NCBI GenBank assembly: GCA_021816935.1
Contig: JAKAWR010000011.1
Coordinates: forward strand, 1-64,000
DNA from: Actinomycetes bacterium
Lineage (GTDB): Bacteria; Actinomycetota; Acidimicrobiia; Acidimicrobiales; JAMCPL01
DNA: 64,000 nucleotides
Direction of reading: 5' to 3'
The notes below the pieces were generated by a model. It was not told where the DNA came from. It saw only the letters and a list, made by a program, of their open reading frames with translations, and did not search any database. Positions 23,743 through 57,662 of the stretch are shown here, in pieces; position 1 is the first letter of the stretch, and every line of letters starts with the position of its first letter. The position numbers and the translations under genes were made by a program.

Positions 23743-24105
23743 CGACCAACACGCTCCTTGACGCACAATGCAAACCTCTCCGGATGGCGACCGACGCCGA
23801 GACCCGCCAGCCTGTCCTCCCGCCACTGGCTGACCCGGCGCCCCCCGGCGACACATTTTCCATGCCAACCAGCGGCTCGCGACCCACCGAGCTATTTCCA
23901 ATGCATGTTATCGTACCCGGCGGGCGGCATGGCCGCCTCCCACCAACTCTTCCTACGGAAACTCGCCAGCGCACCGTTGCGTAGGCCATGCGATGCTATC
24001 GGTGAGTCGGGGTCTTCATCTGGCAAGGCGGAGGAGCGAGAACGTCCGGTGCGAGGCGGAGACTCGCTACAATGGCGCGAGTCCCAACCCGCGAGGGTTG
24101 GCGGA
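23743..24105. other. Intergenic region between clpP and tRNA-Leu
   Basis: This 363-base stretch should hold the clpP promoter (reverse strand) and the tRNA-Leu promoter (forward strand, possibly near CTACAATGG at 24068). It also contains family M element copy 3 at 23970-24053. No gene is supported. Confidence 0.5.
23970..24053. repeat. Family M palindromic element, copy 3
   Basis: The ends CGCACCG (23970-23976) and CGGTGCG (24047-24053) are exact complements. Between them lies the family core: GCGATGCTATC, GAGTCGGGG and TTCATCTGGC. The core aligns with the elements at 50560 and 57556, at a nearly equal offset from the left end (46 against 48 bases). Confidence 0.6.
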
Positions 24106-47655: not shown

Positions 47656-50559
<2,904 letters not shown>

Positions 50560-50650
50560 GGGCCCGTGTCATAATTAGTGGGATGATATCCGGCGAGTCA
50601 GGGGCGTCATCTGGCCGTCGGGATCGCTCAATTAATTATGACACGGGCCC
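50560..50650. repeat. Family M palindromic element, copy 1 (MITE-like)
   Basis: The 91-bp element has perfect 18-bp terminal inverted repeats: GGGCCCGTGTCATAATTA at 50560-50577 and its complement at 50633-50650. It is flanked on both sides by TTA, a possible 3-bp target duplication. The core GATGATATCC, GCGAGTCAGGGG and TCATCTGGCC is shared with the elements at 23970 and 57556. The right-hand TTA is the stop codon of recN (TAA, reverse strand). Confidence 0.85.
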
Positions 50651-52348
50651 TTAGGCCCTTTTCATGGCCAGTAGCTCCTCAGCGTGCCGGCGAGCTGCCT
50701 CGAGCGACGGCTGCCCGGAAAGCATCCTCGCCACCTCCTGGACCCGCCTTGAACCCTCGACCTGCTCGAAAACCGCAACGGTTCGGTCGCCCGCCATCTC
50801 CTTCGATACTGCGATCTGCCGGTCTGCCCAGGCAGCAATCTGGGGCAAGTGAGTCACTACTATCACCTGGCGTCCGCGCGAGAGCTCGAAGAGCGCCCGG
50901 CCCACTGCCATCCCCGCCTCGCCTCCGATCCCCGCGTCCACCTCGTCAAACACCATCGTCTCGGGACCTTCCCCTCTCCGGGATCCCCGCCTGTCGGAAT
51001 CTCTCTCAGCACTGCCCGAAGCGTTGGTGCCTCCCGAAAGTGCCAGTCTCAGTGCGAGCATCGTGCGGGACAGCTCCCCCCCGGAGGCCACCTTCTGCAG
51101 CGGCAACGCCGGCTCGCCAGGATTGGCACCGAGAAGGATTGCCACGGGATCCCCGGTGGGGCTAGGAGCAACATCCACCTCGATACTCGCCTTCTCCATA
51201 GCCAGGGGCCGAAGCCGCTCGAGCACGCGTTCCGCCAGTCGGGGTGCAGCTCGCCGCCGCGACTCCCCGACAAGGCGTTCCTCTTCCCCTATCTCCCGGC
51301 ACAGCTGAGCTCGCTGCGAATCCAGCTCTCTTGCCCCTCGAGCCGCACCGGTCAGGTCGGCAAGACGGACACGAAGCTTCTCCCGCTCCTCGATGGCCGC
51401 CGCCAGGGTCCCATCGCCGGAGTACCTCCGCTCGATATCCTTTAGCAGCCTTATCCGCCGGCGTACCTCGCCAAGTCGATCCGGGTCATCCTCCGCAGCC
51501 GCCAGGCGTCCCCCCAATTCGGAAACCAGATCCTGCATGTCGGCCTGCAGGGAGCCGAGACGCTCGCGAACTGGCTCGAAACCCGGGAGTCCTGCGAGAG
51601 TCCTGCGGCTCAATCCGATCAGCTCCAGTGCCCCCCCGACGCTAGCGTCACCGCCGGGCGGGCGGGCGCTTCCGGCAGGATCAGACGCGACATCGGAAAG
51701 CAGAGCGACCGCCTCGCTCACGGCATCCCGGTAGATCTCGATAGCAGTAAGCCTCTCCTCCTCCTCGTGCAGCGTATCGTACTCGTTCGGATCACTGAGC
51801 GACGCCCTGTCCAGCTCGGCCAGCTTCTCCCCCGCAACCGCCTGCTCCTTTGCTATCGCCTCCGGATCCCCACCGAGTGAAGCCAGCCGCTCGTCAATCT
51901 CCCGTAACGCAGCCTTCATCCCGGAAAGCCTCGAGAGATCCGTACCCGCGAACGAGTCCAGAACATCCCGGTGCGTCCCTGTGCTGCGGAGTACTTGATG
52001 GCCGTGCTGGCCGTATATGTCCACCAGACTTGCGCCAAGTTCCACTAACGCCTGCGCTGCAGCCATACGGCCATCCACCCAGGCCCGCGAGCGTCCACCC
52101 GAAGCGATTTCCCTTGCGATGACTACCTCGTCCCCTCCGGCGAGAAACCGGCCCTCCACGAGCGCCGCGCCCGCTCCCGCCCTCACCATGGCAGGATCCG
52201 CCCGAGCGCCGCAAAGGAGTCCAAGGGCCTCCACGACAAGCGTCTTGCCTGCGCCCGTCTCACCGGTCACCGCCGTCATGCCCGCCGGGATCTCCAGCGT
52301 CACGTCCTCGATAACGCCCAGGTCCCGTACTCTGATCTCTTCGAGCAT
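50651..52348 (-). CDS. recN: DNA repair protein RecN
   Basis: A 565-residue SMC-like ATPase. It begins MLEEIRVRDLGVIEDVTLE, with Walker A GETGAGKTLVVEAL, DIYGQHGHQVL, and a central coiled coil (about 160-380). The C-terminal half has the signature KVASGGELSRTMLAL, Walker B TMVFDEVDAGIGG and VTHLPQIAA. RecN joins broken DNA ends in recombinational repair. A short Gly/Ser/Arg-rich insert (about residues 435-460) sits between signature and Walker B. The gene stops at the edge of the family M element. nadK and tlyA lie upstream on the same strand, in a common order. Confidence 0.93.
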   Translation of the reverse strand: MLEEIRVRDLGVIEDVTLEIPAGMTAVTGETGAGKTLVVEALGLLCGARADPAMVRAGAGAALVEGRFLAGGDEVVIAREIASGGRSRAWVDGRMAAAQALVELGASLVDIYGQHGHQVLRSTGTHRDVLDSFAGTDLSRLSGMKAALREIDERLASLGGDPEAIAKEQAVAGEKLAELDRASLSDPNEYDTLHEEEERLTAIEIYRDAVSEAVALLSDVASDPAGSARPPGGDASVGGALELIGLSRRTLAGLPGFEPVRERLGSLQADMQDLVSELGGRLAAAEDDPDRLGEVRRRIRLLKDIERRYSGDGTLAAAIEEREKLRVRLADLTGAARGARELDSQRAQLCREIGEEERLVGESRRRAAPRLAERVLERLRPLAMEKASIEVDVAPSPTGDPVAILLGANPGEPALPLQKVASGGELSRTMLALRLALSGGTNASGSAERDSDRRGSRRGEGPETMVFDEVDAGIGGEAGMAVGRALFELSRGRQVIVVTHLPQIAAWADRQIAVSKEMAGDRTVAVFEQVEGSRRVQEVARMLSGQPSLEAARRHAEELLAMKRA

Positions 52349-57511: not shown

Positions 57512-57555
57512 CACCCCGTCGTGACGATCTCCAGTTTCCGAGCCTCGAAGAACTC

Positions 57556-57648
57556 GTGCGCCCTCGCGTAAGTGGTGCGATGCTATTCAGCGAACCAGGG
57601 GTCTCATCTGGCCAGCGAGAGCGCGCTTGTTACTTGAGCGACGCTGCA
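57556..57648. repeat. Family M palindromic element, copy 2
   Basis: A 93-bp element with imperfect terminal inverted repeats (13 of 20 positions: GTGCGCCCTCGCGTAAGTGG against the complement of the right end). The core GCGATGCTATTC, AGCGAACCAGGGG and TCATCTGGCC lies 48 bases from the left end, exactly as in copy 1 at 50560. It sits between the divergent MFS and RAM genes. Confidence 0.65.
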
Positions 57649-57662
57649 CTACCGTAGAGATC

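Follow-up and report, generated by a model that had tools for sequence, protein, structure and literature searches.

Matched terminal arms on one shared core: a probable family of palindromic MITEs in uncultured actinobacteria

The element at 50560-50650 and two related loci

The window, i.e. the whole 64,000-nucleotide stretch of DNA that was analysed, carries a 91-bp palindromic element that directly adjoins the stop codon of a minus-strand gene encoding a RecN/SMC-like protein (Table 1). The coordinates in the initial annotation of this element were exact, and its 18-bp arms are indeed perfect. The same annotation proposed a core shared with two other loci, and this homology was upheld: a profile of the left half of the family detected all three loci (E 9e-13, 2e-10 and 9e-5), while the best match of the same profile in 30 dinucleotide shuffles of the window reached E 0.03, a somewhat generous comparison given that the three loci were among the copies from which the profile was built.

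Table 1. Coordinates of the element, its parts and its two relatives in the window.
Feature	Coordinates	Strand	Remarks
Probable MITE of sub-family A, 91-bp one-core form	50560..50650	+	24 dispersed copies; shorter than the 160-bp form by 69 bp, the distance between its two core repeats
Left terminal inverted repeat GGGCCCGTGTCATAATTA	50560..50577	+	
Right terminal inverted repeat	50633..50650	-	perfect complement of the left one
Target-site duplication TTA, left	50557..50559	.	direct TAA/TTA repeats in 21/23 sub-family A copies
Target-site duplication TTA, right	50651..50653	.	coincides with the TAA stop codon of minus-strand gene 50651-52348
Conserved core GATGATATCCGGCGAGTCAGGGGCGTCATCTGGCC	50583..50616	+	central part of the hairpin
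Old, decayed family member	57554..57652	+	end type D (GTGCACCGTCGCGTAAGTA-like)
Old, decayed and internally rearranged family member	23968..24057	+	right half like the linker of the two-core form

The arms had also been described as complementary in every copy. This did not hold: only the element at 50560 folds beyond chance (RNA z -9.2, DNA z -6.8), whereas the hairpins at 57554 and 23968 do not (RNA z about -1.0 and about +0.6, respectively, with DNA parameters in agreement). Copies without arm complementarity, which were to have spoken against the family, were found among its old members only. The loci at 57554 and 23968 are decayed copies, and their ends can be recognised only when other copies are set beside them. 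The latter precedes a tRNA-Leu gene by about 50 bp.

Sub-family A in the host genome

Judged by one protein, the host is an actinobacterium close to drafts of Acidimicrobiaceae. The core pattern, allowing up to 2 mismatches, occurred at 70 places in the 2.32-Mb assembly of the host genome, compared with 2 for the reversed control. A search for the GGGCCCGTGTCATAATTA end with up to 3 mismatches returned 49 matches, 48 of which formed 24 pairs, and none with the reversed control pattern. The genome thus contains 24 complete, near-identical copies of sub-family A, each with both GGGCCCGTGTCATAATTA arms at the expected spacing and with perfect 18-bp terminal inverted repeats. Arms differing from copy to copy, as first suggested, are therefore not what is seen; the arms are specific to the sub-family. 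In the window, a lone match to this end with two mismatches lies at 1997-2014, where a 648-aa reading frame ends, and is probably due to chance.

Sub-family A comes in length classes of 91 bp (the window copy only), 160/161 bp and 205 bp. Since the two cores of the 160-bp form lie 69 bp apart, and 160 - 69 = 91, the window copy is most simply read as a deletion between these two direct repeats. A direct 3-bp repeat, TAA or TTA (TWA), flanks 21 of 23 copies; the two copies without a matching duplication differ at the middle base. According to a simple reading-frame survey, most insertion sites are intergenic or at stop codons (a stop codon is touched by 4/24 copies, the window copy included), and the sites and their flanking genes are unrelated to each other.

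Among 397 genomes of the order, the ends of sub-family A were present in the host genome and absent from all others. A plasmid search yielded no match, a phage search a single chance-like match of 45 bp inside a coding gene, and a search of viral contigs six single core-like matches. The window copy is part of a young, intact burst; the initial description of a degraded MITE family with changing ends was essentially right for the family, although not for this copy.

Related sub-families, arm pairing and decay after insertion

A covariance model of the unit, used to search the host genome and its relatives, detected older relatives in the host genome, in five genomes of the same family and in one genome of another family (G047), with one further weak match in G281. 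Besides sub-family A, the host genome contains the matched end types GTGCACCGTCTCATAAATA, GTGTAGTGTCCACCAAGTA and GTGCACCGTCGCGTAAGTA; the sister genus carries GTGTAGTGTCTCGTAAATA and GTGGTCTGTCCCGTAAATA, and G047 carries GTGCTCCGTCCCGGAAGTA and GTGGTCCGTCCCGCAAATG. At least six matched end types thus sit on one homologous core, with two kinds of target site. Each end type is common to many copies, and the architecture is the same across sub-families. Sub-family A and type B have their interior and the long 205/212-bp insert in common, and reading by eye revealed that end positions 4, 6, 7, 12 and 19 changed complementarily in both arms. Beside elements outside sub-family A, the sequence CTAG was found on the left in 60/89 and on the right in 50/89; the duplication in these CTAG-type sub-families is CTAG or TA, the two being inseparable. 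These data show that the family predates the host genome and comprises several sub-families, which have a homologous core in common but differ in their matched ends.

Further features were noted among the relatives. In several genomes, CCAG often stands in place of the left CTAG flank, or CTGG in place of the right one, a pattern that looks like very-short-patch-type conversion at CTAG. Long forms from different sub-families and genomes (L012, L014, L017, L026, L027, L037, L235, L236) carry an inserted hairpin, CAACAGTCCGGTGGACTGTTG, together with GGCATGGCGAAGCAC. Two loci, L271 (G005:C19:18305-18405) and L286 (G005:C111:22786 onwards), combine the terminal repeats of the family with unrelated interiors and are apparently separate MITEs using a common mobilising system. 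One-ended and truncated remnants are common, and G003 and G005 contain numerous solitary decayed ends, which frequently lie upstream of genes (L247, L255, L260, L262, L263, L264, L274 and others).

Intact elements fold into a single long hairpin over their full length. In 57 one-core copies, left and right arms of the same copy matched better than permuted arms (mean 10.9, compared with a null mean of 7.4 and a null maximum of 8.8 in 5000 permutations), while the own partner was the best or tied best in just 14/57, indicating that arm matching is by sub-family. Among 17 representatives, 93% of cells pair and double changes occur in 20/36 pairs. The covariation score was 0.459, compared with 0.218 for a shuffled control that leaves relatedness in (0/500 shuffles reached the observed value) and at most 0.143 for a slid control that removes relatedness but gives an advantage to a structure that was itself taken from this alignment. 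Covariation extends beyond the terminal ends into the core. Between sub-families, both arms change together.

If the stem were held in each copy, one-sided changes should give G-U rather than A-C pairs. Private one-sided changes in one-core copies gave G-U to A-C counts of 9 to 7 (arms) and 3 to 3 (inner stem) in the sister genus, and of 3 to 6 and 7 to 6, respectively, in the host genome. The arms of extracted elements, with one fixed position (15) left out, gave 85 to 76, and the terminal branches of the tree 52 to 64 and 42 to 37. Given this even split, inserted copies appear to decay neutrally, with no structural bias. Covariation between sub-families combined with unbiased decay within copies is in keeping with transposon ends and not with an RNA under constraint in situ.

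Mobilisation in trans, alternative readings and known systems

Features characteristic of a miniature inverted-repeat transposable element (MITE) are present throughout: the elements are short, dispersed, non-coding and multi-copy (91/160/205 bp; 24 copies of sub-family A plus older relatives), they have terminal inverted repeats (perfect over 18 bp in sub-family A, matched end types in the others), and sub-family A has a target-site duplication (TWA). We therefore consider it very probable that the element is a MITE, i.e. a short non-coding transposon mobilised in trans by a transposase encoded elsewhere. Each end type would fit a particular DDE transposase, and because both ends must fit the same enzyme, a sub-family would remain mobile only if the two changed together. 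A change in one arm of a palindrome could plausibly be carried over to the other by template switching, which is described as homogenising inverted-repeat arms (PMC8604942). Once inserted, a copy would be inert and then decay neutrally. Movement in trans would explain the dispersal, the matched ends, the duplications, the intergenic sites, the identical young copies and the neutral decay.

A search of the seven draft carrier genomes with five Pfam transposase families found no autonomous parent with these ends. PF13358, PF13359, PF13586 and PF13546 gave no match in these drafts, from which the gene may be missing; PF01609 matched in G003 and G047 only, at loci none of which has the ends of the family. 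The host genome is itself a draft, 85.5% complete, and its own insertion sequences may be missing from it. The solitary ends in G003 and G005 were considered as parts of a parent transposon and rejected: they resemble truncated remnants of MITEs, and the 0.8-5 kb examined showed no nearby partner end that led to a transposase. The TWA target and the GGG ends, and these two features alone, tentatively suggest that the transposase of sub-family A was of IS5/PIF-Harbinger type. A 3-bp TWA/TNA duplication of this kind was found in sub-family A only, and PF13359 and PF13586, which would represent a cognate transposase with the same ends, had no match in the seven draft genomes.

Some properties of the family are strand-specific. 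In 102/107 elements the more stable fold is that of the plus strand, and on this strand the family consensus strongly favours G-U (strand-symmetric count for sub-family A, 185 G-U to 4 A-C). It is possible, if rather doubtful, that the master lineage, as opposed to each inserted copy, was selected to fold as a plus-strand hairpin, e.g. for mobility or control via single-stranded DNA or RNA; such selection would supplement the MITE reading rather than compete with it. Consistent with such selection, wobble-type mismatches are nearly all G-U on one strand (10 G-U and 0 A-C in the sub-family A copy L003), tandem GA steps occur in the linker, and the covariation reaches past the ends into the core. 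However, few of the sites are independent, since much of the G-U excess goes back to a single ancestor and the two cores form a direct repeat; the internal branches of the tree gave G-U to A-C counts of 18 to 11 (inner stem) and 21 to 21 (arms); and the tandem GA steps derive from two purine-rich direct repeats. A further speculation, to which we give little weight, is that one MITE core passed from transposase to transposase through concerted end turnover, from CTAG-type to TWA-type in sub-family A, with the plus-strand hairpin needed for movement or for homogenising the arms.

The initial annotation had also offered a structured element in which only the pairing of the arms matters. A structured non-coding RNA or regulatory element, with pairing selected in place, copy by copy, would account for the covarying stems, core included, and for the stable, G-U-rich plus strand. 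Pairing does covary strongly between sub-families, but within copies G-U and A-C are about equal, in the arms and in the inner stem, which counts strongly against selection in place. The G-U excess as proof of an RNA is likewise weakened by the counts on the tree. Moreover, the fold is lost in old copies, insertion sites and flanking genes are unrelated, and in the window Rfam gave only tRNAs at the gathering score and, at E up to 10, only sub-threshold microRNA models. We regard this alternative as very improbable. Independent elements having the core in common by chance or as an ordinary promoter, an idea to which the intergenic position of the loci lends itself, can be dismissed, as homology spans the full 91-165 bp with precise boundaries and target duplications, and core similarity far exceeds that of shuffled sequence.

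As a palindromic MITE, the element can be compared with several known systems. REP/REPIN sequences, described as tagged palindromes of 20-40 bp that are linked to REP transposases (PMC3733652, PMC8266576), are likewise short dispersed palindromes with coordinated arm sequence; unlike them, the family has long terminal repeats and a target duplication. PIF/Harbinger and the bacterial IS5 superfamily comprise transposases that are related yet use different targets (TWA, AT, C|TNA|G) (PMC4482050). Sub-family A resembles the Tourist-like MITEs of PIF/Harbinger and IS5 in its 5'-TWA-3' duplication and GGG ends, but with no such transposase found in the host genome it is a candidate member only.

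The closest known kinds are ERIC, Correia/NEMIS and RUP, small elements with terminal repeats, target duplication and a transcript folding as a stem-loop (PMC2229807; reviewed in PMC10969869), and the element is an ERIC/Correia-like palindromic MITE. Like these, the family is about 100-200 bp long, non-autonomous and mostly intergenic, with terminal repeats, a target duplication and a whole transcript predicted to form a long stem-loop. They occur in other hosts and are likened here by architecture, not by sequence. Their termini are 5'-TA-3' (PMC2229807), compared with TWA in one sub-family here and CTAG in the others; and, unlike them, the present family has several matched end types on one core. 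The kind of element is thus well known, and our data add a family of palindromic MITEs from an actinobacterial lineage that has not been cultured. Its interest lies in the concerted turnover of both ends and in the change of target from CTAG to TWA in the newest sub-family. Its six or more matched end types on a single core, together with the two kinds of target site, make it a compact natural series for asking how a transposon's two ends come to change in concert, and, if the same core truly switched transposases, a tractable record of end evolution.
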